A stretch of DNA of 64,000 nucleotides from Aeoliella straminimaris (lineage in GTDB: Bacteria; Planctomycetota; Planctomycetia; Pirellulales; Lacipirellulaceae). The position numbers and the translations under genes were made by a program. The stretch covers positions 62,001 to 126,000 of the forward strand of contig NZ_JAMXLR010000038.1 in assembly GCF_024054565.1 (NCBI RefSeq), written 5' to 3'. Positions 3,982 to 18,232 of the stretch are shown piece by piece. The stretch's first letter is position 1, and every line of letters starts with the position of its first letter. Below the pieces are notes generated by a model that was not told the DNA's origin, searched no databases, and was given only the letters and a program-made list of their open reading frames with translations.

Positions 3982-4040
3982 TAGAGTACCGGAGGTGGGA
4001 CTCGAACCCACACGATCTTGCGATCACTGGATTTTGAATC
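3982..4040 (-). repeat. left attachment site: tRNA-Leu 3' fragment
   Basis: This copy matches 18174-18232, with 33 identical bases at its start and 16 identical bases across the anticodon region. It holds the acceptor 3' strand, T arm, variable arm and 3' half of the anticodon arm of a tRNA-Leu(CAA), then homology stops at 4040. It cannot fold into a whole tRNA. The four differences lie in the variable arm and are paired (GATC/GATC here, GCCC/GGGC in the intact copy), so both versions form a stem. Confidence 0.9.
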
Positions 4041-4132
4041 TGAGTTCACCTGCTCGTTGATTTTTATTAGCTTTCTCGCCCCGCAAAACACAGGCTTTTC
4101 ACAACGCAAAAAGTCGAATCGGGAAGCGACTT

Positions 4133-4151
4133 GCTAACACTTCGCTAACAC
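4133..4151 (+). repeat. paired GCTAACAC repeats, possible integrase arm sites
   Basis: GCTAACAC occurs at 4133-4140 and again at 4144-4151, 11 bases apart. Similar octamers, GCTAACAG and CCTAACAG, occur 12 bases apart at 18087-18106 near the other end and in the same orientation. Short direct repeats inside both ends are what arm-type sites of tyrosine integrases look like, but octamers this short may be coincidence. Confidence 0.3.
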
Positions 4152-4160
4152 CCACCACGT

Positions 4161-4193
4161 ACCCCGCAGGCCACAAGCCTAGCGGGGTGTTTT
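4161..4193 (+). terminator. rho-independent terminator near left end
   Basis: ACCCCGC (4161-4167) pairs with GCGGGGT (4182-4188), and an inner AGG/CCT pair closes the loop; GTTTT follows. It would insulate the island from host transcription at its left boundary. Confidence 0.65.
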
Positions 4194-4243
4194 CGTTGAA
4201 ATCGCTGGCGGCCGGGTCGAAAACAGCCGTCCGGTCGAAGAAT

Positions 4244-4382
4244 TCCAAAAAGTTTTTTCGTGCGAAAGCGTGCGAAAGCGTGCCATAGCGTGCCATAGCG
4301 TGCCATAGCGTGCAAAGTGGTTTTGCCGCTGGTGTTTTGGATGCGACAAACTTCTGGTTGCGCATAAACTGGGGCCTTATCA
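4244..4382 (+). repeat. 139-bp repeat unit, copy 1, with six phased 10-mers
   Basis: The unit begins TCCAAAAAGT, continues with six tandem 10-bp repeats at 4261-4320 (TGCGAAAGCG, TGCCATAGCG and a final TGCAAAGTGG), and ends with a 75-bp segment (4308-4382) that is identical in copy 2. The 10-bp period places each repeat on about the same DNA face, as in iterons or operator arrays. No credible protein is encoded. Confidence 0.8.
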
Positions 4383-4451
4383 CCACTGCGGCAACCAAAG
4401 GCAACAGAAGCTACTGCCTGCGACAGACTGCCCCAAACCGGAACGACAAAA

Positions 4452-4590
4452 TCCAAAAAGTATTTTCGTGCGAGAACTTGCGAAAACTTGCGAGAACGTG
4501 CGAAAGCGTGCGAGAGCGTGCAAAGTGGTTTTGCCGCTGGTGTTTTGGATGCGACAAACTTCTGGTTGCGCATAAACTGGGGCCTTATCA
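4452..4590 (+). repeat. 139-bp repeat unit, copy 2, with six phased 10-mers
   Basis: This is the second copy, offset 208 bases from copy 1. Its six 10-mers lie at 4469-4528 (TGCGAGAACT, TGCGAAAACT, TGCGAGAACG, TGCGAAAGCG, TGCGAGAGCG, TGCAAAGTGG), followed by the identical 75-bp segment at 4516-4590. The 10-mers differ between copies while the 75-bp part does not. The pair sits upstream of the first gene of the island, where the DNA-binding protein or the replicase could act. Confidence 0.8.
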
Positions 4591-4704
4591 GCGAAAGCTC
4601 CTGCCGAAACCAACGAAAGCTTCTGCTTGGACAGATCACCGAAACGTGGCCAAAATGGTCGCCAGCATTCACGACACCCCCTTACCGAAATTGGAGTTCA
4701 AACA

Positions 4705-5007
4705 ATGGCCGTACCCGCCCTTGGTACCGAGGCAATTCTTCCCGACGCCCTCTACCCGGTGTCGGCCTTCGAACGCACCGCCGGCATTTCGCCAGCGCGT
4801 CGGTCCGAAGCCAAGAAACACGGCATCGAACTAGAGGTTCTCGAAGTCGGCCGGCGGAAGTTTACCACCGGCAAAAATGCCATCGACTACCTACACCGAC
4901 TGGCCGCGCACACGGCCGCGCCACGCTGCCCCGCGCAGTTCACCACCATGGCAGGCCCGCAGGCCGGCCCGCAAGCGCGTGAGCACTTCGGCGCCAGCCG
5001 GAACTAA
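4705..5007 (+). CDS. small DNA-binding (excisionase/HTH-like) protein
   Basis: The 100-aa protein starts at the ATG at 4705, with GGAG nine bases upstream; the longer frame from 4627 has no ribosome site. Residues around 15-60 (LYPVSAFERTAGISPARR ... KFTTGKNAIDYLHRLA) look like a winged-helix or helix-turn-helix domain of the kind found in excisionases and phage regulators, including the closing strand that introduces a new helix. The last 30 residues are low-complexity (AGPQAGPQA). It is the first gene after the phased repeats and before the replicase, so a role as recombination directionality factor, repeat-binding initiator or repressor is plausible. The family is not firmly recognised. 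Confidence 0.6.
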   Translation: MAVPALGTEAILPDALYPVSAFERTAGISPARRSEAKKHGIELEVLEVGRRKFTTGKNAIDYLHRLAAHTAAPRCPAQFTTMAGPQAGPQAREHFGASRN

Positions 5008-5195
5008 CCAAACAGCCGCGGTAGCTCGCCCTGCGAGGCGCCAGCTAGACGCTGTCGACGCGTCGCCGGGCGTCGCGGCATTTTCGAGACAACGCCGGCC
5101 GTGGGGGCTGGCTAAACGTAATCCGTTCGCCCTGCCGGGCCTGGTCGACCGCTTCCGGAAACTGCGGTCGGCCAGGTCTCAAGGGTGAGAGCTTT

Positions 5196-7343
5196 TTGGA
5201 GAATGGATTTTTGAACGGAATCTTGGACCAAGCGGCGGCCGAAGTCGACTACAGCGACGCGGTAAGTGAGAAACACCAAGCGGCCATCGAGTACGCACAG
5301 AACGGCGATCCTGTTTTTCCATGCGTGGAAAACGGCAAGCCGCCAGCCTGTGAGCACGGCTGCAAAGACGCGACAACCGACCTGGCGACAATCCACGCCT
5401 GGTGGTCCGAAAATCCGGAATATAATATCGGCCGATCGACCGATGGCTTGCTGGTGGTCGACGTTGACGGCAAGTCGAACCCCTGGCTGTACGACATTGG
5501 ATCGGAACGCCAGTCGGAATTGTTGGCGGCGCCGCACGCTACCACGCCTAACGACGGCCTGCACTTTGTGTTTCGCCAGCCAGACGGCGCGAATTACCGG
5601 AATACGACAGGTCACCTGGCAGAGAAAGTCGACACCCGGGCCAACGGTGGCTACATCGTCGTGGCCCCATCGACCATCGACGGCCGCGAATACTTGTGGC
5701 GAGGCCAGGACGGCGAACTGCCGCCTTTCGACCAATTACCGGTGGCGCCGGCCTGGCTGTTGGACGCGCTGGCGGCCAGTGACAAAAAGCCGAAGCAACG
5801 CAAGGCCGGCACCGACGGCGCGGCCGCCGTACGCGGTAGCATGCCGGTCTACCGCGAGGGTGAGCGGAACGACGCGCTGTACCGCGAAGCCTGCAGCCTG
5901 GCCAACGTGGTTAAATCGCCTGGCGTCTTGGAGGCAGCGTTGCAGCGGACCAACGCCGAACGTTGCCAGCCACCGTTGCCGCCGGCCGAGGTGTCGCGGA
6001 TCGCGAACAGCGCCGCGGAATACATTGGGGCTGGCGGTAATTGGCCGACCGCGCAGCCGGCGCCGGCGGTAGTTGAGCCTGACGAGGCGTTTCCGACGCA
6101 CCTACTACACCCCGGCGGCCTGCTGGAAGAAATCATCGAATACCACCTGGCGACTGCCTACAGGCCGGACCGCGGCATAGCGTTTTCCGCTGCCCTGGCT
6201 TTGGTGTCGACCATCTTAGGCCGCAAAGTTGTGGACGACTGGGGCACCAGACCAAATCTGTACATAGTCCAGCTGGCGCCGCAGGGTGCCGGCAAAGACG
6301 CCGGACGCCTCGGCAACGAAAAACTGCTGATCGAAGCCGGCGCCGAGTGGTTGCTACTGGCCGGCGACATCGCCAGCGCTACGGGGCTCGAAATGGCCAT
6401 CAGACAGCACGGCGTCGGACTGCTGCAGATCGACGAAGCCGGCGACAGTCTGCAGGCGATGATGGGCCAAGGGGCAGCGCCGCACATAGCGCAGGCCGTC
6501 GCGGTCCTGAAAAAGCTGTACACGTCAAGCGGCGGTTACTATCGCGGGAAGTGCTATGCCAACCAGGACAAAAACCCGACTATCGTTATCTGCCAACCGT
6601 ACTTAACCGCCTACCTGACGGCGACGGAAGACCAGTTCAAGAAATCGCTGCAGGCTGCTTCGGTGCTGGATGGCTTTATGTCGCGGCTGGGGGTGTTCGA
6701 GGCCGCCAATAAAAAGATACCGTACACGCAATCGCCGCAGCTGGACTACGGCCGCCAGTCGATCGTCGGCAAGGTAAAAGCCTGGGTCGATTACCAACCT
6801 GGCGGGAATCTATCGTCTACTTCGACAGGCAACCCGGCGCCGGTCGAGATTCCATCATTAGACGGAGCGGTCCGCATCTTCGCTGAACACGACAACCGGT
6901 GCACCGACCTGGCCAACAATGATCGCGACGCCTACCGCGGCTTGTGGTGCCGGGCGCACCTGAACGCGCGGAAGTTTGCGTTAATCCACGCCTGCAGCCT
7001 GGCTGGTAAGCCGGCACCGAAATCGGTCGCCGCTGAGTCTGCTAAGTGGGGCTGCGAGCTGTCCGACTACTTGACGCGGCAGCTGGTGGCTATCGCCCGC
7101 GACGACGTCGCCGAATCGCCGTTCGACGCGGACTGCAAAAAGGTGGTTCGGTTCCTCAAAGGACGGAAGGGGCGAGCCACGGGCGACCAGGTCCGGCGCG
7201 CACTACGCCACCTTTCGAAACGCGACCGGGCAGCCGTCATAGAAACCATGGAAGAGGACGGCCGAATTGGCCGCGAGACGCAATACCCAAATGGCCCTGG
7301 GCGCCCGGCGACCGTCTACTACTTGGCTGCGGAGAGGGGTTGA
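5196..7343 (+). CDS. Prim-Pol / PriCT / P-loop replicase
   Basis: The 715-aa protein most likely starts at TTG 5196, because AAGGGTGAG lies just upstream and no ATG or GTG fits. Residues about 30-190 are an archaeo-eukaryotic primase (Prim-Pol, PF09250-like) domain with the metal-binding LLVVDVDGK near residue 87, LHFVFR near 122 and a TRANGGYIVVAPS strand. Residues about 220-275 resemble PriCT. Residues about 300-520 are a DUF3987-type P-loop region with a modified Walker A (APQGAGKDAG, near 360) and Walker B (LLQIDEAGD, near 408). Such proteins prime and unwind at plasmid, satellite and phage origins. It is followed directly by an iteron field, which is the probable origin it serves. Confidence 0.85.
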   Translation: MENGFLNGILDQAAAEVDYSDAVSEKHQAAIEYAQNGDPVFPCVENGKPPACEHGCKDATTDLATIHAWWSENPEYNIGRSTDGLLVVDVDGKSNPWLYDIGSERQSELLAAPHATTPNDGLHFVFRQPDGANYRNTTGHLAEKVDTRANGGYIVVAPSTIDGREYLWRGQDGELPPFDQLPVAPAWLLDALAASDKKPKQRKAGTDGAAAVRGSMPVYREGERNDALYREACSLANVVKSPGVLEAALQRTNAERCQPPLPPAEVSRIANSAAEYIGAGGNWPTAQPAPAVVEPDEAFPTHLLHPGGLLEEIIEYHLATAYRPDRGIAFSAALALVSTILGRKVVDDWGTRPNLYIVQLAPQGAGKDAGRLGNEKLLIEAGAEWLLLAGDIASATGLEMAIRQHGVGLLQIDEAGDSLQAMMGQGAAPHIAQAVAVLKKLYTSSGGYYRGKCYANQDKNPTIVICQPYLTAYLTATEDQFKKSLQAASVLDGFMSRLGVFEAANKKIPYTQSPQLDYGRQSIVGKVKAWVDYQPGGNLSSTSTGNPAPVEIPSLDGAVRIFAEHDNRCTDLANNDRDAYRGLWCRAHLNARKFALIHACSLAGKPAPKSVAAESAKWGCELSDYLTRQLVAIARDDVAESPFDADCKKVVRFLKGRKGRATGDQVRRALRHLSKRDRAAVIETMEEDGRIGRETQYPNGPGRPATVYYLAAERG

Positions 7344-7352
7344 GCATCCTTT

Positions 7353-7627
7353 GGCCGGTATGGCCGGTAATTGGCCGGTAATTTGGCCGGTAATTCAAGG
7401 GCAAAAACAACATATATATATGTTGTTTTTTATTATTCATACATATTACCGACCATTACCGACGCCCCCCTCTGTTAACTCAAAAAGAGAGTGGCCCCTT
7501 GAGGAAAAAGAACACCCCTGGTCGGTAATGGCCGGTAATTCGAAAACAGCGAGCACGCCCTAGAAAAACAGGGTTTTTTTCTCCGAGATACCGGCCAAAA
7601 AGCATGGTCGGTATTCAATTACCGGCC
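7353..7627 (+). repeat. iteron field, 11 copies of GGYCGGTA(A)T
   Basis: Direct copies start at 7353, 7362, 7373 and 7385, then 7520, 7530 and 7606. Inverted copies span 7445-7454, 7455-7464, 7588-7596 and 7618-7627. The consensus is GG(C/T)CGGTA(A)T; first-base and last-base variants are few. The first four are spaced 9, 11 and 12 bases apart. This density cannot be chance in 275 bases, and no coding frame explains it. Confidence 0.85.
7403..7430. repeat. perfect 28-bp AT-rich palindrome
   Basis: Every base pairs across the centre between 7416 and 7417; the core is CATATATATATG flanked by AACAA/TTGTT. It lies between the direct and inverted iterons. It could be a DNA-unwinding element, a site for a dimeric initiator, or a terminator for the replicase because a T run follows. 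Confidence 0.8.
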
Positions 7628-7778
7628 ACCACGGAGCTGCACCACCATCGGGACTGACCCGGACTCACCCGGATTGGTTCCGGTGACCCACTACTGACAC
7701 ACACCGCCGCGACGGTCGCGGCACACTGGCCACCAAAAACGAGAACCACGCCAACCGACCCTAGCGCCCCAAAGCGGG

Positions 7779-7976
7779 TTGGCCAACACAGCAGGAGTAA
7801 CGACGCGGGGCGAAAACGAACTGAGCTTCGGCGAGGAGGTCCAACTGATGAAGACCATCGCCGAGCAGCAGGGGATTTCCGTTGAGACAGTCGCGATGGT
7901 CGCGCTGCAAAAGGAAGTCCGGACATTGCAGGAACTGGTCGCCACCGTCGGCGACCTGGTCATTGCGAAACTTTAA
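7779..7976 (+). CDS. small helical protein, unknown function
   Basis: A 65-aa frame opens with TTG at 7779; an AGGAG lies a few codons inside, so the true start may differ. The sequence is mostly helical (SFGEEVQLMKTIAEQQGIS ... LQKEVRTLQELVATVGDLV) with a heptad-like C-terminal half, as in small dimerising proteins. It ends 11 bases before the next gene and reads as part of the same plus-strand operon. I do not recognise a family. Confidence 0.5.
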   Translation: MANTAGVTTRGENELSFGEEVQLMKTIAEQQGISVETVAMVALQKEVRTLQELVATVGDLVIAKL

Positions 7977-7987
7977 CCGGGGGACCG

Positions 7988-8386
7988 ATGAGAATTCGAT
8001 TTAAACCAACCGAGGCCAACGCATTCCAGGCCGAACGCCAACGGCAGACCGCCGAGCAACGCGCACGCGAACTGGGCGTCGACCCTGCCGGCAAGAGTCG
8101 CGACCAATTGACGGCCGCGGTGGCCGCCAGGTTAAAGCAGGGCACCGCACGCAAGCCGTCGCAGCCTGCGAAGCCTGCCGGCGATGCAAACAACCTGGCA
8201 GCCGGCGGACGCAACGCAGAGCCTGTGCGGCGTTCTAGTGACACGTCCGAACGACTGGCGAACTTCCAGCCACCAGGCGGCCGGCAATACCTGCTTATCG
8301 AAGGCGGAGAGGAGCGTTTGGAAACGGCGCCGTCGAAGGCGTTCCGCAGTTTCAGCGGCGCCGGCGCGTCGTTTGTGCTGGCGTAA
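7988..8386 (+). CDS. hypothetical basic protein of the island
   Basis: The 132-aa protein starts at the ATG at 7988, with GGGGGA seven bases upstream. The N-terminal half is rich in Arg, Gln and Ala (FQAERQRQTAEQRAREL) and likely helical; residues 20-50 (ELGVDPAGKSRDQLTAAVAARL) may form a small SAP-like helix-hairpin. The C-terminal part (FQPPGGRQYLLIEGGEE) is different and probably folded separately. No family is recognised. It is 11 bases after the 65-aa gene and is probably co-transcribed. Confidence 0.6.
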   Translation: MRIRFKPTEANAFQAERQRQTAEQRARELGVDPAGKSRDQLTAAVAARLKQGTARKPSQPAKPAGDANNLAAGGRNAEPVRRSSDTSERLANFQPPGGRQYLLIEGGEERLETAPSKAFRSFSGAGASFVLA

Positions 8387-8490
8387 TCGCCACCCCCGCG
8401 GGTCCTACTTTGGGATCCGAGCGAAGCAACCAAGGGGAACTGCACATACCACCAACTGCCTATCTACCCCATCTGAAAGGAGATAACGGG

Positions 8491-9186
8491 GTGTATAAGA
8501 CTAAACCGCTGCCAGATTTGTCGGAACAGGACGCCAAGCGTTTCTGGTCGCGCGTCGCCAAGACGCCTGACGAAGTAAACGATGGCTGCTGGGCGTGGCT
8601 AGGGGCCAAAAACCAGGAAGGCTATGGTCTGTTCAAGCTGAGCCAGACCAAGCAGGTATTCGCCCACCGGGTCGCCTATCGGCTGGCCACTGGCAAGCCG
8701 ATTCCGCCCGGCCTGGGTGTCTTGCACTCTTGCCACAATCGCTGGTGCGTTCGGCCAGGTCACCTGCGGGCCGGCACGCACCAGGAGAACATGCGCGACC
8801 TAGTTAGGACGCGGCCGCGCGGCGAGCAATGCAGCAACGCAAAACTTGACGTCGCGCAGGTCGCCGAGATCCGCAGGCGATACAAGCTGGACGGCCAGAC
8901 CGTCCAGCAGATCGCCGACGAGCTAGGCGTTAGCATCGCGGCCGTTCGCGACGCGGCGACAGGTAAGACTTGGTCGCATGTTACGGGTGCCGTAGCTCGC
9001 AAAAATCCGGCGCGAGCGTCGAACACCAAGCTGCAGCCGAGTGACAAGCCATTGATTCTATCGCTGGCTCGGCAGGGCTGGTCGCACGCGAAGATTGCCG
9101 AACGGTTCGGCGTTAGTCGCCGCGCGATTGGCTACGTGCTGTCGGGCCAGCGGTGGGCAGGGATTCAACCACCATCGGGGAACTGA
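8491..9186 (+). CDS. HNH endonuclease with C-terminal HTH repeats
   Basis: The 231-aa protein starts at GTG 8491, preceded by AAAGGAG at the right spacing; the longer frame from 8410 is not needed. Residues 79-91 contain the HNH core: H79, C81, H82, N83, C86 and H91 in LHSCHNRWCVRPGHL, with the Asn-rich helix GTHQENMRD after it, as in homing-type HNH_3 nucleases. Residues about 110-150 (QVAEIRRRYKLDGQTVQQIADELGVS) and 185-225 (LARQGWSHAKIAERFGVSRRAIGYVL) are two resolvase-like helix-turn-helix motifs. It may be a free-standing homing endonuclease or a nuclease used in genome processing by the element. Confidence 0.85.
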   Translation: MYKTKPLPDLSEQDAKRFWSRVAKTPDEVNDGCWAWLGAKNQEGYGLFKLSQTKQVFAHRVAYRLATGKPIPPGLGVLHSCHNRWCVRPGHLRAGTHQENMRDLVRTRPRGEQCSNAKLDVAQVAEIRRRYKLDGQTVQQIADELGVSIAAVRDAATGKTWSHVTGAVARKNPARASNTKLQPSDKPLILSLARQGWSHAKIAERFGVSRRAIGYVLSGQRWAGIQPPSGN

Positions 9187-9244
9187 AACTAAAGCCGTGC
9201 CGGTTGTCGGCTCGGATGAACTCAAAGAAGACCGAGGGAAAATT

Positions 9245-9742
9245 ATGGCACTGTTGCCTACCAAACACATTCCAAGACCACAAAAACTAGGCACCGCCGA
9301 AGGCAGCCCAAGCACGGCCGAAGTGGTCGCGGACCGCGCGGCCGTCGAAAGCGGCGCGCAGACGTACCGTACGGTGTTCGACGCCAACGACCTGCAAACC
9401 TTGGCCACCGATAAAGAAGCCGCTGGCGTGGTCAGAACGCCGATTAACCCCGCCTGGCCGTACGGCAGGTCGGTGTCACCCATAAACATGCGAGAACAAA
9501 GCCCCATTGCCTGGTTCCCACCTAGCGACTGGATGTTCAAGATGGTCATGCCGGTCCCGCTTTACAACCGGTGCGTCGCCGAGTTCGCATCCGACGGCGG
9601 CGACGCCGATCGCAACCTGTTCCACGCGGTGCTTTCCGTCGTACGCCGGGGCGTGAAGGTCGATCAACTACCGCCAGCGGCCAAGACTGTTTACGACGAT
9701 GGCGTTTCTCGCGGATGGGACAAGCAGGCGCCGACGTACTAA
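9245..9742 (+). CDS. hypothetical island protein
   Basis: The 165-aa protein starts at the ATG at 9245, with GAGGGA seven bases upstream; the open frame starts earlier, at 9095, inside the HNH gene. The N-terminal 100 residues are polar and probably flexible; residues 95-165 (PIAWFPPSDWMFKMVMPVPLYNRC ...) look folded. No known domain is visible. Its position between the HNH gene and the tape-measure block suggests a phage-derived structural or accessory protein, but that is only context. Confidence 0.6.
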   Translation: MALLPTKHIPRPQKLGTAEGSPSTAEVVADRAAVESGAQTYRTVFDANDLQTLATDKEAAGVVRTPINPAWPYGRSVSPINMREQSPIAWFPPSDWMFKMVMPVPLYNRCVAEFASDGGDADRNLFHAVLSVVRRGVKVDQLPPAAKTVYDDGVSRGWDKQAPTY

Positions 9743-9795
9743 CGGGCCAATTGCGACAAGCACCCAACATCAATTTTCTAAAAGGTAAGATAACT

Positions 9796-10431
9796 ATGCA
9801 AGCAACAATCTCCGCCCGACGCCCCAAGTCCGTCACACTGGACCAGGTGGTCGACGCGGCCGACCCACACACCTGGCGATTCGCAGGCGAAGAGGTTAAC
9901 GCCGCGATCACCGAACTACAGGCCGAAGCTATCGAGCTACAGGCCGCGGCGGCGGGCGACGTCGAACGCGCGTTGCAGGACTCGACCGGCGACACGTACG
10001 AAGACCTGCAGCGAAAACGCGACATGCTGGCCGCGGTCCGCTATTCGTGCGGCCAGAAGGCCTTGGAGATCGCGCAGGCCTGGCACCAGGTAATCGACCA
10101 GGCTGAAGTATCGCTGCGAGCCAAGCAAGGCGACCTGGCCGCCGTAGCCGACAAGGAACGCGAGAAGTCCCGCAAAGCATTGCTAAAAGCCAACTCCGGG
10201 CCGGAGAGCGATCCTGTTTTTGCAAACGCGCCGCAGGTTGCGGAACGAAAGTTCGCGCATAAAGTCGCCGCGACTACCAACGTGGCGAAGGCCATGGCGG
10301 ACGCGAACGACTGCCGAAACGAACTGCGGGCGATCCCAGAGCACCGGCGACGCGCCCAGCAGGCAGTCAGCCTGGCGGAACGTTACCTGGCCGATTTCCG
10401 TCGCCGGTTCATCGAATCGGCGGCCCGGTAA
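9796..10431 (+). CDS. coiled-coil protein upstream of tape measure
   Basis: The 211-aa protein starts at the ATG at 9796 after an AAAGGTAAG site; a longer frame from 9571 overlaps the previous gene. Residues 30-190 are almost wholly helical with long Ala/Glu/Arg stretches (VNAAITELQAEAIELQAAAAGDVERAL and others), predicting an extended coiled coil. No enzyme motif is visible. Coiled coils of this size occur as scaffolding proteins, tail chaperones and regulators, and I cannot choose among them. Confidence 0.6.
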   Translation: MQATISARRPKSVTLDQVVDAADPHTWRFAGEEVNAAITELQAEAIELQAAAAGDVERALQDSTGDTYEDLQRKRDMLAAVRYSCGQKALEIAQAWHQVIDQAEVSLRAKQGDLAAVADKEREKSRKALLKANSGPESDPVFANAPQVAERKFAHKVAATTNVAKAMADANDCRNELRAIPEHRRRAQQAVSLAERYLADFRRRFIESAAR

Positions 10432-10534
10432 CCGGCACCACCAAAGCCGGCCCGGGAGTGGTTCCCCGAGCAAGGCCGTTGCGGTCAGACTTCCACCGCG
10501 GCGGCCGGCCGGCTTATCACCCGAGGGGCAACCA

Positions 10535-10741
10535 ATGCAAGACGACAGCGAACGTTTCGACATGATGGACCGACCGACGGCCGCAACCACGATGGCCACG
10601 GTAGACGATTGGCACGCTGTGGATGAGGCAGCGGACCCGCGAGAGGACCCGACGCCCGAGCAGATCGCCGAGCGGTGCGCGGAGGTCCGGCGGGGCTGGT
10701 CCAAGAATCGAACACTAAAAAGGGCTGCCTGGCAGTCGTAA
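10535..10741 (+). CDS. small acidic protein before tape measure
   Basis: The 68-aa protein starts at ATG 10535, with GAGGGG eight bases upstream. It is acidic in its first two thirds (MQDDSERFDMMDRP ... DPREDPTPEQIAERC) and basic at the end (RGWSKNRTLKRAAWQS). In tailed phages the gene just before the tape measure often encodes an assembly chaperone, but at 68 residues and without sequence similarity this is only a positional hint. Confidence 0.5.
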   Translation: MQDDSERFDMMDRPTAATTMATVDDWHAVDEAADPREDPTPEQIAERCAEVRRGWSKNRTLKRAAWQS

Positions 10742-10777
10742 CCAACTTAATTTTGAGGAATGGGGGGCAAAAGTATC

Positions 10778-12955
10778 ATGGCAAATAGAAGCATCGAAGC
10801 CGGCCGCGCGTTTATGCGGTTGTTTGTGGACGACAACGAACTTCGCCGCGGCCTGGACAAAGCGGCGAAGCAAATGCGGGCATTCGGCCAGTCTATCGCC
10901 AAGGTGGGCGCCGGGTTTACTGCGCTGGGCGCGACCATCGTGGCACCGCTGACGGCCGCGGTTAAAATTTTCCAGTCGACCGGCGACGCGCTCGACAAAA
11001 TGTCGCAACGCACCGGCGTCAGTGTCGAAGCGCTTTCGGAAATCGGGTTTGCTGCCGAGCAGTCGGGAAAAGACCTGGCGGTTTTCGAAAAGGCGTTTAT
11101 CGGCCAGGCCCGCAGCATTCGAAACCTAGAGCGGGGGCTATCGACGTCCGCCGAGGCTTACGACGCGTTAGGACTGTCCATCGAAGACCTGCAGGGGCTG
11201 GCGCCGGACGAACAGTTTGCGCTGATCGCCAGGCGGCTGGCTGGAATCGAGGACCCGACCCGCAAAGCGGCCCTGGCGATGGAAGTATTCGGCCGCGCTG
11301 GTTCGCAGCTGGTCCCGCTGCTGGGCTCGCTGGACGGCCTGCGGCAGCAGGCGCGAGACTTAGGCCTGACGATCGACACCGAAACCGCGCAGAGCGCAGC
11401 AGAGCTGACGGACGCGTTTAACGAAGTCCGGCGGGTAGTCCTGCGGACCGCGGTAGCGATCGGCGCCGAACTGGCCGAACCACTGATTAAGGCTGCCCGC
11501 TGGATCCGCGACACGGCCAAGGCGTCGATAGCTTGGGCGAAGGAAAATGGCGGCCTAATCCGATCGGTGGCAGCTGTTGGCGCCGGCCTGGTCGCTGTGG
11601 GCGTTACGCTGGCGACCGTCGGGGCTGGGTTCATCGCGGCGGGGGCTGCTGTGACGGGCTTTACCGTGGTTGTTAACGCGTTGAACGTGTCGCTGGTGTT
11701 TCTAGCCGCGAATCCGTTGGTTGCCCTGGTGGCGGCCATTGGGGCCGTTGTCGTAGGCCTGGGGCTGTGGGTGGCGGCCACTAAAGAGTCGACGGCCGCA
11801 AACCGCGATTCCATAAAGAGCGTCCAGGACCTGGCGGGCGAACTGAACGCGGCCAGGTCGGAGTTCGCAAACGCCGGCGACGAAGTCGACATTTTCCGGG
11901 CCAAGCTGGCCGCGTTCCAGGGTGGCCAACAGCTGACCGGCCAGCAGCTGGTCGCGCAGGCGAAGATTGTGCGCGAACTGCAGGACGCGTTCGGCGATTT
12001 GGGCATTGTGTACGACCGGACCACCGGCGCAATTGCCAACCTGGACGAAGCGTTAACCAAACTGGCGGCGTCGGAGAAAAAAGCAGCGGCCACCAAGGCC
12101 TACGAAGATTCGCTGGACCAGGTCAACGCAGAGGCGCTAAAGGCCGCGAATCGCATGCGCGAACTGCAGCAGCAGGTGGAGGGCCTAGAGAGCAACGGAT
12201 TTGGGCTGCAGTTTCGATCAGCTGGCGTTCTGACGGCGAAAAGCCAGTTGGAGGAAGTCGCGAAGGTCTACGAAGACCTGGTTACGCGTCGCGACGAATT
12301 GAAACTGCAGTTTGACGCAGACATCCGGGCCATCGACCAGGCGTCTAGTCGCACGCTGGAAATTACCGCCGAGCAGGCCGGCGCCGTCGCCAACCAGGCT
12401 GGCCAGTCGATCGCCGCGGGCATCGAACAGGCGTTCGGCGTTGGTATCCCGGCTGTTTCGTCCGCTATCGAAAGCCTGGGGGCAGCTGCACAGCGCAGCG
12501 CCGAAGCTATTCAGCGCGAGAAGGAACTGCGCGAGCAACAAAGGCTGTCCAGTCTCAGGCTTTCGGACGAACTGGCGGCGCTGAAGATCGCCACCACGCA
12601 AGACGGCCTGGCGGAGCGAAAATCGCTGATCGACCTGCAGACGCAACAGGACCGCCGCGACCTGAAAGGCGAAGGGTTGCTGACGCCTGAAATAGAGGCG
12701 GCACTAAAACAGCGCGGCGAACTGCTAAAGCAGCAGGCCGAACAGGACTTCGAACGGTTTAACAAGAAACCGAAAAACGACCTGGCGGCCGCCGAGTCGC
12801 GGGGAACGTTCAGCGGCCGGGCTGCGTCGCTGGGCGCGTTGAACAACGCCGGGAGTATCGACAAAGAGCAATTAGAGGAGTTGAAAAAGCTGGTCGATGA
12901 GGCCGGCAGAACTCGCAGGGCTATCCAGAACGGAAAGGGGGTGCCGGTAACATGA
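10778..12955 (+). CDS. phage tail tape-measure-like protein
   Basis: The 725-aa protein (start ATG 10778, with GGGGGG ten bases upstream; ATG 10760 is a less likely choice) shows the layout of tape-measure proteins. There is an N-terminal region of the type LFVDDNELRRGLDKAAKQM, then FQSTGDALDKMSQRTGVS and EALSEIGFAAEQSG, long Ala-rich helices, and a hydrophobic stretch at about residues 255-330 (VGAGLVAVGVTLATVGAGF, NPLVALVAAIGAVVVGLGL). A coiled-coil tail with many Gln and Arg follows. Such proteins set tail length and enter the host membrane. No tail tube, baseplate or capsid gene is seen around it, so its role here may differ. Its stop overlaps the next gene. Confidence 0.8.
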   Translation: MANRSIEAGRAFMRLFVDDNELRRGLDKAAKQMRAFGQSIAKVGAGFTALGATIVAPLTAAVKIFQSTGDALDKMSQRTGVSVEALSEIGFAAEQSGKDLAVFEKAFIGQARSIRNLERGLSTSAEAYDALGLSIEDLQGLAPDEQFALIARRLAGIEDPTRKAALAMEVFGRAGSQLVPLLGSLDGLRQQARDLGLTIDTETAQSAAELTDAFNEVRRVVLRTAVAIGAELAEPLIKAARWIRDTAKASIAWAKENGGLIRSVAAVGAGLVAVGVTLATVGAGFIAAGAAVTGFTVVVNALNVSLVFLAANPLVALVAAIGAVVVGLGLWVAATKESTAANRDSIKSVQDLAGELNAARSEFANAGDEVDIFRAKLAAFQGGQQLTGQQLVAQAKIVRELQDAFGDLGIVYDRTTGAIANLDEALTKLAASEKKAAATKAYEDSLDQVNAEALKAANRMRELQQQVEGLESNGFGLQFRSAGVLTAKSQLEEVAKVYEDLVTRRDELKLQFDADIRAIDQASSRTLEITAEQAGAVANQAGQSIAAGIEQAFGVGIPAVSSAIESLGAAAQRSAEAIQREKELREQQRLSSLRLSDELAALKIATTQDGLAERKSLIDLQTQQDRRDLKGEGLLTPEIEAALKQRGELLKQQAEQDFERFNKKPKNDLAAAESRGTFSGRAASLGALNNAGSIDKEQLEELKKLVDEAGRTRRAIQNGKGVPVT

Positions 12956-13425
12956 TGACGGACCACAGCGAAACCGTCGCGCACGTCGAGCGCATCTGCC
13001 TTTCGGGGCTGACGCGGTTCGATGGCTCGGAGCATGACCAACGCGCCGCGAAAACCACAGCCAGCTTGGTGGCCAACCTGGCCGACCTGTTGGACAGCGG
13101 CGAAGTCGAGGCCTGGCAGCTATCGGCGATCGAAAACGTAAACGACGTTATCCAATTCTTCACCGACTGGCAGCGGGACCGCGGCGACATCGACCAGGAC
13201 GAATACGACCAGCGGACGCTGGAGACACAGCGGTTCCGGCTGGTCGAATTAGTGGGGCCGACCTGCGGCCAGAAACAATCGCAGGACGTCGACCGCGCAG
13301 TCTGCGAGGCCGTCCAGGCCGGCTGGGTCACGCTGGACGACCTGCGCGAGCTGGAGACGGCGGAGAACGTTGTCCGGTTGCTGAACCGGGCAGCGGACGA
13401 AGGGCGGCGCCAGCGGCTGGAGTAG
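12952..13425 (+). CDS. hypothetical protein coupled to tape measure
   Basis: The 157-aa protein starts at 12952 (ATGATGA), overlapping the stop of the tape-measure gene by four bases, so the two are probably translationally coupled. It is acidic and helical throughout, with Asp/Glu-rich pieces such as DLLDSGEVEAWQL and RDRGDIDQDEYDQ. I recognise no domain. Coupling suggests a partner of the tape measure, for example a chaperone. Confidence 0.6.
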   Translation: MMTDHSETVAHVERICLSGLTRFDGSEHDQRAAKTTASLVANLADLLDSGEVEAWQLSAIENVNDVIQFFTDWQRDRGDIDQDEYDQRTLETQRFRLVELVGPTCGQKQSQDVDRAVCEAVQAGWVTLDDLRELETAENVVRLLNRAADEGRRQRLE

Positions 13426-13653
13426 GCGGCTGCGGAGACTGGGGGCCGGCTGGGGATGTATGGCCGGGAGGTTCTTTGACAATTTGAAAGTCTGCGCCCT
13501 TGCCCACGTGTGGCGGGGCGTGGGCTATTGCGTTGGACTGTGTATTCCCATGACTTGAAAATTGATTGCGAATTCGGCCAAGATTGAATTCGGTGCGTCG
13601 AATATGCTGGGTGTACGTACATTTACTATGTTCAGTTTTGGGAGAAAGATCGA

Positions 13654-14574
13654 ATGCGGGTTCCGTTTAATCTCGCCTCTATAGTCGGTTTTCTCGGGAA
13701 TTACTGGCTTCTGATAGTCGGCTTAGTGGCGGCCATTGCCTGTATCGCCTTGCACGTTAGGCGAGACCCTAACACGCCGTACGGTCCGTTGGTTATTATG
13801 GCGGCCGCTGGCCTTCTCGCCATCGGGGGGACTTGGTGGGGCGCCGTCCAACAGATGGCGGCAGACGAAAAGGTCCAGACGGACCTGGAGACGGCCAACC
13901 AAACTCTTGTCAAGGCAACCGAGAAGCAGGACCAGACGATTGCAGAACAGGCGAAGACGATTGCGGAACTGGAGCGGACGCAGGAAATGCTGACTGGCGG
14001 CGACGGTGCTATTTTCCTTGAGTTCACCGATTCGCAGGCCGTCCTTCGAAACACGGGGAAGTATCCAGTTCACGACGTCAGGTTCGTTGTAGTTGACCTA
14101 ACGAAAGGCATATTAGACTGGAGAAAGAACCCGAACAAATCGGCCAAAGAAGTGTTCAACCAGCAACGAAGACCTGCCGAGTTTGAGACCATAAGGCCAG
14201 GCGGCCGCACGGCGATGTATGCGTTCAGGTTCCCTCCCCAAGGGGCCAGGCACTACTATGTGATTGAGGCCTCAGTCTGGACCAGCATTTTTCGGCAGTT
14301 CGCTGTCATCGACCATACCGAGGACGGCGCAATGACCTATGCGTACAAGGTCGTTAGGTGTGACATCGACAAACTCCGGTACCAGGATTTGTCGCCCCCT
14401 GTGGTGCAAGTTGACGAAGACTTCCCTCGCAATGCGGAGGGGAAGGTCGATTGGATTGACTACTTGGATAACAGTTGCTTTAGTGACGAAGATGCACTCC
14501 AGTACATAAAGCAACACTTATCTCCTCCTCAGGCAACTGAAGGCGGGGGGGCAGAGCCAACAGCCGAAGAGTAG
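13654..14574 (+). CDS. two-TM coiled-coil membrane protein (cargo)
   Basis: The 306-aa protein starts at ATG 13654 after GGGAGAAAG. Residues about 13-31 and 42-62 are membrane helices; residues 70-112 form a coiled coil (DLETANQTLVKATEKQDQTIAEQ); the remaining 190 residues are a soluble domain of beta-rich look with an acidic tail. No family is recognised. It follows a 228-base gap and has lower GC than the genes before it. It points towards the NYN ribonuclease gene on the other strand. Membrane-plus-nuclease pairs are frequent among defence cargo, so such a role is possible but unproven. Confidence 0.65.
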   Translation: MRVPFNLASIVGFLGNYWLLIVGLVAAIACIALHVRRDPNTPYGPLVIMAAAGLLAIGGTWWGAVQQMAADEKVQTDLETANQTLVKATEKQDQTIAEQAKTIAELERTQEMLTGGDGAIFLEFTDSQAVLRNTGKYPVHDVRFVVVDLTKGILDWRKNPNKSAKEVFNQQRRPAEFETIRPGGRTAMYAFRFPPQGARHYYVIEASVWTSIFRQFAVIDHTEDGAMTYAYKVVRCDIDKLRYQDLSPPVVQVDEDFPRNAEGKVDWIDYLDNSCFSDEDALQYIKQHLSPPQATEGGGAEPTAEE

Positions 14575-14744
14575 CAGGCGTGGAACCGGACGAAGTCGAC
14601 GTAACAGAGAACAGCGACCCGGTGGCCTGGGTGCTGTCGAAGAATCTTCACCGCAAACCATTGCTGCCGGCCGTCGTCTGTGTGCATTAATGGCCAAGTG
14701 TCGATTGTCATTCGACGCCTTCGGATCTTCGAGTTGCCCACCCA

Positions 14745-14933
14745 CTACGTTTCAACGCCGAGGTCTTCCACTGCGTCCCAAGAGTCGAACTCGTGAACGA
14801 TGACAATCTGCTGGCCTTTACGGCGCGATCGTTGGCCATGGGTGTACCCGTAGACTGACTGGACTGGCGACTCATCGTCTATGCTGGTTCGTACCTGAAT
14901 ATTTTGGGGAACTCTGCGGCAGCGCAGGAGCAT
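14745..14933 (-). CDS. possible small protein overlapping NYN gene end
   Basis: A 62-aa frame begins inside the last codons of the NYN gene and ends at 14745. Its second half (RRKGQQIVIVHEFDSWDAV) has protein-like composition. There is no obvious ribosome site. It may be a small overlapping gene or the lost C-terminus of the NYN protein after a frameshift. The rest of the 14575-14878 gap shows nothing I can name. Confidence 0.25.
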   Translation of the reverse strand: MLLRCRRVPQNIQVRTSIDDESPVQSVYGYTHGQRSRRKGQQIVIVHEFDSWDAVEDLGVET

Positions 14934-15709
14934 AGAACTTGCAAGTTAGTGTGTCTCCGCAGTTCGGCTCCGCCGCCAATTCCCGGGACCTCGAGGTAGT
15001 AGTACCCCTGTGCTTCCGCGACTTTCTTTTGAAAGTCTTTCCCAGGAAGGTCGGTAGGGGCGAGGATTCTGGTGTGAGTATTATTATTCGAGAACTTTGC
15101 AAGGTCGCCATTCGACATGGAAGGCCATTTATGCGATCCGCGAAAGCTGCCGTCTGTGAAAAAAAGAACCTCTCTCCAAGACATGCAGTGCGATTCGTCC
15201 GCAGCGTCGACCAGAGCATCGCTGAACGAGTCGGATATATAGACAAGCCTCAAGTACATTCCTGCCAGCTTTAGTGCCTCCAAAACCGGCAAAAAGTCCT
15301 GGTCTCCTGCTATCAATGTCGCCGATCGCATATTTCCGTGCAATGTGTGCGACAACATATCCACCGCGAGTTTTACGTCTACCTGTTTTTGACGCTTCTT
15401 TTTACCCATGGTCCTGCCGACAAAAACGTGGCACCCCCTGGTACGGTTGAACTCCCGCATCAACTCGTCGAAAATCTGGCCTGCGTTGGCATCGGCAGCT
15501 TGCGGGTGTGTGTCCGAGACCGGCGAGGCGTCGTAGTAAAAAACCTTGGTGAATACATCGGAAAACACTTCCAGGCTAAGCTGAGGCACGTCCTCCGTAA
15601 GCAGCATGGCAGGTAGCCTGCTGATTCCTCCTCGCAGGTATGCACCGTCTATGAAAAGGTAGGATGGCCGTTCTACCGCCGGGGTGTTTTGGTCGTTAGT
15701 CCAATACAT
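14879..15709 (-). CDS. NYN-domain (PIN-like) ribonuclease
   Basis: The 276-aa protein starts at ATG 15709, with GAGG six bases upstream. Residues 15-175 match the NYN/LabA (DUF88) fold: YLFIDGAYLRGG with the first catalytic Asp, then KQVDVKLAVDML with acidic residues, and LIAGDQDFLPVLEALKLAG with the last acidic pair. A Lys/Arg run (GKKKRQKQ) may contact RNA. The family are metal-dependent RNases; several are used in RNA turnover or anti-phage systems. It is the only minus-strand gene of the island apart from the uncertain small frame, lies tail-to-tail with the membrane protein gene, and is probably cargo. Confidence 0.8.
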   Translation of the reverse strand: MYWTNDQNTPAVERPSYLFIDGAYLRGGISRLPAMLLTEDVPQLSLEVFSDVFTKVFYYDASPVSDTHPQAADANAGQIFDELMREFNRTRGCHVFVGRTMGKKKRQKQVDVKLAVDMLSHTLHGNMRSATLIAGDQDFLPVLEALKLAGMYLRLVYISDSFSDALVDAADESHCMSWREVLFFTDGSFRGSHKWPSMSNGDLAKFSNNNTHTRILAPTDLPGKDFQKKVAEAQGYYYLEVPGIGGGAELRRHTNLQVLCSCAAAEFPKIFRYEPA

Positions 15710-15861
15710 TCTGGCCTCGCTACGCGGCAGGTCGAAATCTGCAGGTTGTCTGCTTTTAGGACCATTCTAGCGAAACAGTGGTTCGCGGTGGAGGTTTCAC
15801 AAGCCGGAGCGAAGCAACCCAAGCTGCTTCTCTGAGGTCCTGGGCGAGTGACGTAGCAGTG

Positions 15862-15889
15862 TTGACACCAGCGCCCCCCGTGGCACAAT
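15862..15889 (+). promoter_or_regulatory. sigma70-like promoter for right-end operon
   Basis: TTGACA (15862-15867) is followed after 16 bases by CACAAT (15884-15889). Downstream, CCGCGG occurs at 15912-15917 and 15924-15929 and could form a leader hairpin or operator. The promoter would drive the small genes at 15953, 16107 and 16694. Confidence 0.55.
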
Positions 15890-15952
15890 GACGGGTGCTA
15901 AACCCTGTCGCCCGCGGCTGCTACCGCGGACGGCAAAAGAGGACATCTGACA

Positions 15953-16156
15953 ATGCTAAATCTTCATCTGAAATCAGAGCGCGTCCGCGCGCAGGTTTGT
16001 GGTACCCGTAAGGGCCACGGGCGGTGTCAGATGCCGCCTAGCAAAGCCTACGCGCGGTCGCGCTTTCTTTGGCCTGGCAATCTGCCGGGCCAGAAAGGCC
16101 ACCCCTATGGTCAATTTCTTCCCGCAACGCTTAACCGTCTGGCGGATCCTTCGTAA
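15953..16156 (+). CDS. small basic protein, possible HGG-family relative
   Basis: The 67-aa frame starts at ATG 15953 with GAGGA nine bases upstream. Residues 15-50 (CGTRKGHGRCQMPPSKAY, then GQKGHPYG) recall short phage-type proteins with the pattern CGAxTRxGxxC ... RCRxHGGxSxGPK, but here the HGG core is replaced by LWPG. It overlaps the start of the next gene by 50 bases in another frame. It may be real, a decayed gene, or chance. Confidence 0.4.
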   Translation: MLNLHLKSERVRAQVCGTRKGHGRCQMPPSKAYARSRFLWPGNLPGQKGHPYGQFLPATLNRLADPS

Positions 16157-16589
16157 CTATCGCAAGGTTCTCGACCTGGTCGACCGCCTGGCACGCAAAA
16201 CCGACTGCCCGCCGCGTCTAAGTTTTCGCAACCAGGTCGCCTGGCTGTGTGACGGCGATCGGATCGGCCACCGGACTGCCGGCCGGTTGCGAAAACTGGC
16301 GACCCTGGTACGCAAAGCTGCGGTCGGCGAATCGCTGGCGCCGGAATCGCTCGAGCAGCTGCTAGGCAGCGCACGCCGGCTGCGTCGCAAGCTTGAGAAC
16401 GTCGACCGGAACACTCGCCAGGCGATTACCATCGACAGCCTGGCGGCAACGCTGGGGCTGCCTGGCGAATGGATCACCAAGCACTGGTTGCAGCGATCGG
16501 TCGATCCGATGCCGACAGTAGGGCGAGGTCGCTTCGTCCTGGTCGACGAGCTAGACGCTTGGGTCCGCCGGCGCGCTGCTGCACTGTAG
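16107..16589 (+). CDS. protein with C-terminal AlpA/excisionase-like domain
   Basis: The 160-aa protein starts at ATG 16107, with AAAGG upstream. Residues 1-100 are very basic and helical (many Arg and Leu). Residues 107-160 (ITIDSLAATLGLPGEWI ... RFVLVDELDAWVRRR) form a winged helix-turn-helix of the AlpA/excisionase kind, and align along their length with the 60-aa protein encoded at 16694. It is likely a DNA-binding regulator or directionality factor of the integrase. The N-terminal basic part has no recognised family. Confidence 0.65.
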   Translation: MVNFFPQRLTVWRILRNYRKVLDLVDRLARKTDCPPRLSFRNQVAWLCDGDRIGHRTAGRLRKLATLVRKAAVGESLAPESLEQLLGSARRLRRKLENVDRNTRQAITIDSLAATLGLPGEWITKHWLQRSVDPMPTVGRGRFVLVDELDAWVRRRAAAL

Positions 16590-16693
16590 ACCCGCTACCT
16601 ACCGCCTTGGCCGTTCTGCCAAGTGCGATTTAGGCCTATTTGTTACCGCTACCCACTATTCCCACGAAACGAAAGAAAGCGAGGCTCCCTACC

Positions 16694-16876
16694 ATGCCGT
16701 CACACATCACCATCAAGACCCTGGCCGCCGAACTAGGTCTTAGCGTCGCCTGGATCGAAACCAACTGGTTGCGGCGTCCGACCAACCCGCTGCCGACCGT
16801 CGAGCGCGACGGCCGGCAGTTTGTCGCGGTCGACGCGCTTAAGTCCTGGTGCAAGGCCCGCGTTGCATCGCTGTAA
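16694..16876 (+). CDS. AlpA/excisionase-like DNA-binding protein
   Basis: The 60-aa protein starts at ATG 16694 with GAGG upstream. It consists only of the winged helix-turn-helix: ITIKTLAAELGLSVAWI, a short loop, then a strand (DGRQFVAVDALKSWCKARV). It resembles the C-terminal domain of the 160-aa neighbour. A lone domain of this size immediately before an integrase gene is the usual position of an excisionase (recombination directionality factor). A terminator separates it from the integrase. Confidence 0.7.
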   Translation: MPSHITIKTLAAELGLSVAWIETNWLRRPTNPLPTVERDGRQFVAVDALKSWCKARVASL

Positions 16877-16885
16877 CCCCTGACG

Positions 16886-16928
16886 CCCAGGCCCGGCGGT
16901 TTTCGAATCGCTGGGCCTGGGGTTTTTT
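16886..16928 (+). terminator. rho-independent terminator before integrase
   Basis: CCCAGGCCC (16886-16894) pairs perfectly with GGGCCTGGG (16913-16921), followed by G and six T. It ends the small regulator operon, so the integrase needs its own promoter or read-through. Confidence 0.9.
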
Positions 16929-16976
16929 CGCGAATCTTTGGTAACTATACACACCGGTAAGAATCGAGGTTTCCCT

Positions 16977-18176
16977 ATGGCCGAAGAAATCAAAGTCTAC
17001 ACGTTCCTCCCCGCTGACCGAACGAACTACCAAATGCGATACCGCGACCCCTACGACGGCAAGGAGCGTACCAGGTCGGCCGGCTGTCGGACGAAGAAGG
17101 AGGCCGAACGCGCCGCAGCGGTTTGGGAAGACGAACTGCGCCGCGGCGTGTACGTTCCGACCAGCAAGGCCACCTGGCAGGACCTGGTAGACCATTACGT
17201 CGAACACGTCCTGCCGGGCTTGGGCACCGGGACGGCCACCACCTACCTGTCAACGTTCAACGTCTTCGGCAAGGTGGCCACGCCCGCGCGTGTCGCGGAC
17301 TTCACCACCAACCGGGTAACGCGGTTCGTTGCCCAATGTCGCGAGAATGGACTATCTGACGCCACGATAGCCCGGCACCTGCGAACGCTAAAGGTGCTGG
17401 CCCGTTGGGCGCATGGGCAGGGCATTCTGTCGATCGTTCCCAAGTTCGAAATGCCGAAGCGGGCGAAGGGATCGAAACGCATGAAGGGCCGGCCGGTGAC
17501 GCTGCAGGAGTTTAACGAGATGCTGGCGAAGGTGCCAGCTGTCCTGCCAGAGTGGCCCAGCGTGCCGCAGGACGTCGACGCCTGGCGGTTCTACCTCAAA
17601 GGCCTTTGGTGTTCTGGCCTACGTCTGGGCGAGTCTCTGGCCCTGCGGTGGGACGATGCCCCCGGCGCTATCGTGGTCGACTACTCGAGGCAGCACCCGC
17701 TGTTTCGGATTCCTGCCGAAGCGCAGAAGTCAGGTAAAGACCAAATGCTGCCGATGGTTCCCGAGTTCGCCCGGCTGTTGGGTACTGCCGCACCAGAAGA
17801 CCGCAGCGGCCCGGTGTTTGCCGTCGGCACCAGCCGGCACATCGTTGGGAAGGTTGTATCGGCGATCGGCCAAGCGGCCGGCGTAGTGGTTGACAGTAAG
17901 TCTGGCAAGTTCGCCAGCGCCCACGATCTGCGGCGATCGTTTGGTTCCCGGTGGAGCCGGAAGGTTATGCCCGCTGTCCTGAAAGAACTGATGCGCCACG
18001 CCAACGTCGCCACAACGCTTGATTTCTACGTAGGGGACGATGCCCAGCGCACCGCGGCCGAACTGTGGGGCATGGAAACCCCGGCTGCTAACAGTTTACC
18101 TAACAGCGAGGTGGAGTTAGGCAGCCAGCCGGAAGTCGAAGATGGCGAAGACGCCTGCTTTTCCAGAGATTTTTAG
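16977..18176 (+). CDS. int: tyrosine recombinase / integrase
   Basis: The 399-aa protein starts at ATG 16977, with CGAGGT upstream. An N-terminal arm-binding region (residues 1-60) is followed by a SAM-like core-binding domain (about 65-165, DLVDHYVEHVLPGL ... HLRTLKVLARWAHG) and the catalytic domain. Catalytic residues are visible: R216 (GLRLGE), H316 and R319 (HDLRR), H341 (LMRHAN) and nucleophile Y351 (DFYVG). The tail of about 45 residues is polar. The stop codon (TAG at 18174-18176) is the first triplet of the right attachment repeat, so the gene abuts the tRNA it targets. It catalyses site-specific integration and excision of the island. Confidence 0.95.
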   Translation: MAEEIKVYTFLPADRTNYQMRYRDPYDGKERTRSAGCRTKKEAERAAAVWEDELRRGVYVPTSKATWQDLVDHYVEHVLPGLGTGTATTYLSTFNVFGKVATPARVADFTTNRVTRFVAQCRENGLSDATIARHLRTLKVLARWAHGQGILSIVPKFEMPKRAKGSKRMKGRPVTLQEFNEMLAKVPAVLPEWPSVPQDVDAWRFYLKGLWCSGLRLGESLALRWDDAPGAIVVDYSRQHPLFRIPAEAQKSGKDQMLPMVPEFARLLGTAAPEDRSGPVFAVGTSRHIVGKVVSAIGQAAGVVVDSKSGKFASAHDLRRSFGSRWSRKVMPAVLKELMRHANVATTLDFYVGDDAQRTAAELWGMETPAANSLPNSEVELGSQPEVEDGEDACFSRDF

Positions 18177-18232
18177 AGTACCGGAGGTGGGACTCGAACC
18201 CACACGCCCTTGCGGGCACTGGATTTTGAATC
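18174..18232 (-). repeat. right attachment site inside tRNA-Leu
   Basis: This copy of the 59-bp direct repeat forms the 3' part of the intact tRNA-Leu(CAA). The matching copy is at 3982-4040. The exchange point must lie in one of the identical blocks: the first 33 bases (T arm and acceptor) or the last 16 bases (anticodon region). Confidence 0.9.

Follow-up and report, generated by a model that had tools for sequence, protein, structure and literature searches.

The locus considered here raises the question of whether a short integrated element with a single recognisable tail gene is the wreck of a prophage or a mobile element that exploits other phages. The element, designated W, occupies 14.2 kb (positions 3982-18232) of a 64,000-nucleotide stretch of Aeoliella straminimaris DNA (assembly GCF_024054565.1, contig NZ_JAMXLR010000038.1, positions 62,001-126,000), referred to below as the window; the other loci compared with it carry L-numbers. 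A first-pass annotation had described W as bounded by a tRNA-Leu duplication and had proposed a new class of phage satellite, a tail-only element or a decayed prophage. The analysis suggests that W is probably a helper-dependent phage satellite of Planctomycetota that puts its own tape-measure protein (TMP) into stolen tails. Its assignment to the satellites is supported by comparative sequence evidence, and the tail mechanism is proposed by analogy.

The ends of W were as first described. A 59-nt direct repeat on the plus strand, found at 3982-4040 and again at 18174-18232 (spacing 14,192), is identical at 55 of 59 positions (93%). The integrase-proximal attachment (att) copy lies within the only intact tRNA of the window, a tRNA-Leu(CAA) located by ARAGORN at 18178-18262 on the minus strand, and the distal copy is a 3' fragment of a tRNA-Leu(CAA). 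All four differences between the copies fall in the tRNA variable arm, which is altered in the distal copy with its stem pairing kept (GATC..GATC versus GCCC..GGGC). The right-hand tRNA matches that of one congener at 85 of 85 bases, whereas the left copy has an unusual arm unlike the congener's. Two explanations are possible: W brought the left arm with it, the crossover lying past the variable arm, or a different tRNA allele was the source of the left fragment. When the flanks of W were fused in silico, ARAGORN accepted the product as a valid tRNA-Leu(CAA), indicating that excision would be harmless to the host. Two congeners have the same tRNA and the same flanking genes without a W-type integrase, which is consistent with a recent arrival of W; they keep the right flank and the tRNA, and the left side consists of other genes, so that no exact empty site was seen. 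The right-end integrase was confirmed by Pfam (Phage_integrase) as a tyrosine integrase at 16977-18176 on the plus strand. Its open reading frame spans 16938-18176, with a probable start at 16977, and ends 2 bases short of the tRNA 3' end.

The tail gene encodes a TMP of 731 amino acids (10760-12955, plus strand). It matched several PHROG tape-measure families at 1e-20 and weaker and no Pfam model above the cut-off; similar proteins in cultured phages, among them Paracoccus phage Shpa, carry a TMP annotation. A whole-genome search found relatives in 50 of 296 Pirellulales genomes, the nearest about 40% identical; a pattern-based contig search with the W TMP alone returned none. Most of the TMP loci are prophages in which, by PHROG labels, the genes follow the order primase, terminase, portal, protease-capsid fusion, decoration, neck, major tail protein, chaperone-position protein, TMP and post-TMP protein, and a tail tube gene lies within six genes of the TMP in 30 of the 42 other TMP loci. 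The identity of the W protein thus follows from the PHROG families, the cultured-phage TMPs and the relatives that occupy the TMP position in prophages. Since a TMP of this family is a usual component of complete planctomycete prophages, and some of these have the W primase family upstream, the genes of W likely descend from planctomycete phages of this type. These prophage relatives indicate descent and do not by themselves prove that W is a wreck.

No W gene gave a Pfam or PHROG match to a capsid, portal, large terminase or tail tube. Furthermore, a tblastn search with 282 planctomycete prophage proteins (E ≤ 1e-3) detected no remnant of a terminase, portal, capsid or tail tube; it matched W in the TMP and the primase only. 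The reported lack of capsid, portal and terminase genes was therefore upheld, as was that of conjugation genes, no relaxase, mobilisation or conjugation gene having been matched by Pfam among the W proteins. The label of tail-only element found no support, since genes for a tail tube, baseplate or fibres are absent from W.

The integrase places W in a family of similar elements. An integrase search found the family in 68 of 296 Pirellulales genomes, and in a second collection 79 integrase loci were kept of 124 confirmed matches, nearly all from Planctomycetota. When 40 integrase loci and two TMP loci were screened for an upstream repeat of the tRNA end, 17 bounded elements besides W were obtained in Pirellulales, all of them integrase-bearing, 7.4-18.7 kb long and with direct-repeat ends. 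Sixteen of the 17 sit at a recognised tRNA gene (tRNA-Leu, Arg, Cys, Phe, Lys or Met), the exception being L133. This family uses many tRNA genes, and tRNA-Leu is also used by a different integrase family in L042.

A second gene is shared by the family. In W it encodes a small Xis/AlpA-like protein of 100 amino acids at the end opposite the integrase (4705-5007, plus strand). A 14-member alignment was built, and hidden Markov model matches were found in 17 of the 18 bounded elements including W, mostly on the side away from the integrase. No relevant Pfam model was matched (neither AlpA nor HTH_17 in any of the 14 members), and a profile search of the PDB gave nothing usable. From its position and a predicted winged helix-turn-helix (HTH) pattern, the protein is likely a directionality factor. 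The replication genes vary among the elements, being of Prim-Pol, DnaB-like, AAA_25 or replication-initiator type, and between related elements of different genera the order of integrase, Xis-like gene and TMP is unchanged although their replication genes are not the same. In the integrase tree, W belongs to a ten-member clade (support 100/98) drawn wholly from its own family-rank group; eight are W or short bounded elements, one is the remnant-like L099 and one, L101, meets a contig break. No complete prophage was seen within this clade. The wider integrase family extends to at least one larger prophage-like locus (L138, 34% identity) and to IMG/VR contigs as long as 59 kb; an integrase of this kind is therefore not diagnostic by itself. 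The proposal of a new class of phage satellite is well supported at the level of a family in which the integrase is common to the 17 bounded elements, the Xis-like gene to 16 of them, and most have partial phage gene sets. No paper joining phage satellites and planctomycetes was found in the open-licence literature, and the family appears to be undescribed.

TMP-like proteins occur in eight of the 18 bounded elements and form four unrelated groups. The W group comprises W, L044 (11.1 kb, at tRNA-Leu(CAA) in Lacipirellula limnantheis I41, with a perfect 57-bp repeat), L136 (10.4 kb, at tRNA-Arg in a single-contig genome) and L083 (16.4 kb, at tRNA-Cys). TMP lengths are 731, 687 and 576 amino acids, and 427 in L044. 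L083 also carries neck, chaperone-position, post-TMP and head-protease-like genes. The other groups are those of L104, from the same genus as W, and its relative L108; of L119, which adds a protease-capsid gene; and of L120, which adds a capsid protein, a head protease and a small-terminase-like gene. PHROG support for the TMPs is strong in L120, L136, L044 and L083 and modest in L104 (1e-6) and L119 (1e-4); L108 was assigned by its similarity to L104. Among elements without a TMP, a large terminase is present in L106 and L107, a protease-capsid gene in L113 and an S49 head protease in L100. No tail gene other than the TMP is recognisable in W, L044 or L136.

As W, L044 and L083 came to light by way of their TMPs, a fair estimate of TMP frequency is five of the 15 elements found through the integrase. 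Neither a portal nor a tail tube was detected in any of the 18 elements (0 of 15 in the integrase-found set), the Pfam list being complete for eight mainly TMP-bearing elements and the pooled PHROG matches listed being 25 of 47 and 25 of 33 families. The difference between TMP and tube or portal, eight versus none of 18, gave a Fisher p of 0.003, and five versus none of 15 gave a p of about 0.04 by hand. Pfam analysis of 95 further proteins of eight elements likewise revealed no portal or tube, and one lone small terminase, a PICI-like trait (PICI, phage-inducible chromosomal island). The presence of the TMP on the integrase tree requires at least five changes, indicating an accessory gene that was gained and lost repeatedly, as expected in satellites.

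A scheme can be proposed for the life cycle of W. The helper would be a tailed phage, probably a planctomycete-type siphovirus whose prophages carry the W TMP family. On helper infection or induction, the Xis-like protein and the integrase would excise W, and the Prim-Pol protein would replicate it from the iterons. As W encodes no capsid, portal, terminase or tail tube of its own, those of the helper would package it. The W TMP would then replace that of the helper to give chimeric tails, as in the Vibrio PICI-like elements (PLEs). The HNH nuclease may act against helper DNA or in packaging, and a homing gene is also possible. The advantage to W could be a set tail length, a different route of DNA entry, or resistance to defences aimed at the TMP of the helper.

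The possibility was considered that W is a decayed siphovirus prophage, stripped of head, portal, terminase and tail-tube genes, in which the TMP persisted by chance. This is the main rival, and we regard it as unlikely but a serious contender. Complete prophages with the W TMP family are common, and in some a related primase precedes the structural genes. L083 has the appearance of an intermediate, as its neck, chaperone-like, TMP and post-TMP genes retain the prophage order. Against decay, the same kind of incompleteness is seen in the four bounded elements of the W TMP family and in others whose TMPs are unrelated, a portal or tube being kept in none. Moreover, W contains no gene remnants, its genes being intact and close-packed, and related elements across genera keep the order of integrase, Xis-like gene and TMP despite different replication genes. 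Taken together, the occurrence of short bounded elements in several Pirellulales families, the shared integrase and Xis-like gene, the intact packed genes, the varied replication modules and the recurrence of a TMP without a tube, portal or complete head argue against a wreck. The first-pass annotation had held that related elements with full capsid and terminase genes in the same order would mark W as a decayed prophage. Complete prophages with the TMP family and, in some, a related upstream primase do exist, but they do not distinguish decay from capture; it is the att-bounded family that favours capture and retention. Also considered was a non-viral integrative element or integrated plasmid carrying an acquired phage gene. 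Plasmid replication modules look similar to the iterons and Prim-Pol of W, plasmids are among the carriers of distant Prim-Pol proteins, and one relative (L112) has CRISPR-Cas cargo. This explanation is nevertheless improbable, as no relaxase, mobilisation or conjugation gene was recognised and the family repeatedly carries TMPs, head proteases, capsid proteins and terminases.

Within the satellite reading, the main alternative for the TMP itself is that it serves as a decoy or defence protein that jams or poisons helper tail assembly. Prophages and PICIs are known to use interference with tail assembly as a defence (PMC11364771, PMC10884400), and several family members have the TMP as their only tail gene. 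A decoy role is doubtful in view of the nearly full length retained by the TMPs, and of the PLE precedent, in which the satellite TMP is built into virions and is required for transfer (PMC12987554). Several points weigh against W as a satellite that reprograms tails. The TMP is an accessory and no fixed trait, and the same tree pattern could come from repeated losses. With the TMP family and a related primase present in complete prophages, any one element could have decayed and kept a gene by luck. No chaperone or hub gene was recognised beside the W TMP, and the Xis-like protein lies outside every relevant Pfam model. Sequence profiles would miss a very divergent portal or tube, and the orphan genes of W could hide divergent structural proteins.

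A wider proposition follows from the satellite reading of W, and on this our judgement is evenly poised. It holds that Planctomycetota have a phylum-specific satellite family whose members each carry a single phage assembly gene or a few of them (a TMP or a terminase by itself, a head protease and TMP, or a capsid and TMP), that TMPs were captured independently from several phage lineages, and that reprogramming of tail length or tail entry by satellite TMPs is a general strategy evolved outside Vibrio, with the TMP as the sole recognisable tail gene. Satellites were thought to steal whole tails until the PLE (March 2026) became the first shown exception, which left the question of whether satellite TMPs are a Vibrio quirk or a general strategy. 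A family in a distant phylum with four unrelated TMP groups makes that question testable, and some members are in cultured strains with complete genomes, such as L. limnantheis I41. With it, Planctomycetota would gain their own satellite family, one relative of which has a full type I-G CRISPR-Cas locus.

The replication module, HNH nuclease and TMP listed for W in the first-pass annotation were borne out by Pfam, PHROG and motif evidence. The replication protein of 715 amino acids (5196-7343, plus strand) matched Pfam Prim-Pol (3e-34) and PriCT_1 (5e-9) and the PHROG DNA primase family phrog_3022 (4e-62). It is followed by an iteron field (7345-7630), identified by motif scan, in which GGCCGGTAATT and its variants occur on both strands together with an AT-rich palindrome (7403-7430). 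Five exact copies of GGCCGGTAATT lie between 7362 and 7627 and no further exact copy is present in the window; the field with its palindrome is a candidate replication origin. The nuclease (8491-9186, plus strand) matched Pfam HNH_3 (1e-14) and HTH_23 and PHROG HNH endonucleases, and has C-terminal HTH motifs. The HTH part weakly matches small-terminase HTH profiles, as it does those of many HTH families.

Genes were predicted with a simple caller trained on the window, which missed at least one real gene elsewhere (the protease-capsid gene of L119). Of the remaining genes of W, three are orphans on the plus strand: g3 (7988-8386, 132 amino acids), with Pfam and PHROG family matches below threshold only, g5 (9245-9742, 165 amino acids) and g9 (12952-13425, 157 amino acids), whose start overlaps the TMP stop (ATGA). 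Neither g5 nor g9 has a relative among 196 genomes of Pirellulales, and their structure predictions made without an alignment were unusable (mean predicted local distance difference test scores of 51 and 58). The helix-rich g6 (9796-10431, plus strand, 211 amino acids) was placed by gene order; its position upstream of the TMP matches that of coiled-coil proteins in L136, L044 and L083, and homology to these counterparts was not claimed as the alignment was of low identity and too weak. Directly upstream of the TMP lies g7 (10535-10741, plus strand, 68 amino acids), called as an open reading frame only, in a possible tail chaperone position; g6 and g7 together fill the place in which a chaperone gene might be predicted to lie. 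Beyond g9 are g10 (13654-14574, plus strand, 306 amino acids), with N-terminal membrane segments, a coiled coil and a weak spanin-like match, and a ribonuclease-like accessory gene with a NYN domain (14879-15709, minus strand; Pfam NYN 2e-11, PADLOC NYN weak). A small DNA-binding-like protein with an HTH (16107-16589, plus strand) clusters with relatives in L100 and L112, and a hairpin search found a strong terminator-like hairpin ahead of the integrase (16886-16921, plus strand). At the other end of W, a repeat search revealed two 147-nt near-copies (4236-4382 and 4444-4590, 89%) in a non-coding region; this near-duplicate holds short internal repeats (GTGCCATAGC).

Other observations concern relatives of W and its genome. 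A HExxH (zinc-peptidase-like) protein is conserved in L136 (5950-6612), L044 (11646-12335), L083 (10658-11368) and L105 (14504-15223), just upstream of the coiled-coil protein and, in three of the four loci, followed by the TMP. It was dropped as a family marker, being unrecognised in W and present in further genomes. In L120, a 17-kb tRNA-Met element that resembles a capsid-forming satellite with its own TMP, the small-terminase-like gene stands with the capsid protein, head protease and TMP at 7507-12795; a lone small-terminase-like gene is present in L101 (103-438). The element L112 (1361-19642; genome G040, contig C11, tRNA-Arg) is 18.2 kb long and has the same integrase and Xis-like genes. 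Its cargo is a complete type I-G CRISPR-Cas system (Csb1/Cas7g, Csb2/Cas5-6g, Cas3g, Cas8g, Cas4-Cas1 and Cas2) with an array of about 15 repeats, so that L112 may be a satellite-like carrier of CRISPR. The genome of W itself contains a second integrase (67%) in L099 (15143-19670, integrase oriented plus; contig C29, tRNA-Leu TAA), beside which lies a TMPb-like protein of 412 amino acids; no distal repeat was detected there, and L099 is probably a remnant of another family member. Additionally, terminase, portal, head-protease-like and capsid-like genes were found in this genome in L239 (6898-19779; contig C57, about 157-170 kb), with no recognised tail genes and no nearby tRNA. This block is either a head-only counterpart or a decayed prophage.

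W was compared with known phages and satellites. Planctomycete siphovirus-type prophages (L078 and L041, for example) share the TMP family with W and, in some, a related primase; they have terminase, portal, capsid, neck and tail tube in order, whereas W has none of these and so lacks the complete-prophage set of terminase, portal, capsid and tail tube. The backbone of W is like that of the phage-inducible chromosomal minimalist islands (PICMIs) of Vibrionaceae, which combine an integrase, a small AlpA-like regulator or excisionase and a primase without capsid genes (PMC10803314). However, the PICMI prototype has six genes and lies downstream of fis, whereas W is 14 kb long, sits at tRNA-Leu and has a Prim-Pol primase and a TMP. 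PICMIs are defined by int, alpA (PF05930 or PF12728) and a primase (DUF3987 or DUF5906), and W falls outside them because it has no AlpA match and its primase is Prim-Pol, not DUF3987.

PICIs are recognised by an integrase, a replication module, a specific att site that is never prophage-occupied, a size of about 12-15 kb and phage-dependent induction and packaging (PMC6092414). The first of these features, the replication module, the att site with direct repeats and the size (14.2 kb) were all found in W. PICIs and the capsid-forming cf-PICIs, at about 15 kb, resemble W in size, specific att site and own replication; some relatives of W share further traits with them, having terS on its own, a head protease or a capsid gene. 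They differ from W, in which no Stl/AlpA master regulator has been shown, no terS was recognised, and there is neither a head module nor the cf-PICI set of capsid, portal and terminase. Strictly, W is not a PICI because it has a structural gene, the TMP; PLEs and cf-PICIs break the same rule, and tmp genes are reported for some cf-PICIs (PMC12987554, Extended Data Fig. 10).

The PLE of Vibrio cholerae differs from W in its replication gene, integrase and phylum, the W integrase belonging to a tyrosine integrase family of Planctomycetota. PLE also encodes a chaperone (and PLE11 a hub) and exploits the virulent myovirus ICP1; neither a chaperone nor a hub was recognised in W, and a relative in the tail assembly chaperone position is present in L083. 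The view in the first-pass annotation that known satellites usually have packaging-redirection genes in place of a tape measure is outdated, as PLEs encode and need their own TMP, which replaces that of the helper in virions and shifts tail length by about 10 nm (PMC12987554, 2026). Deletion of the PLE tmp lowers transduction by 96-99.9% (PMC12987554). Like W, the PLE is an integrating element that carries its own TMP.

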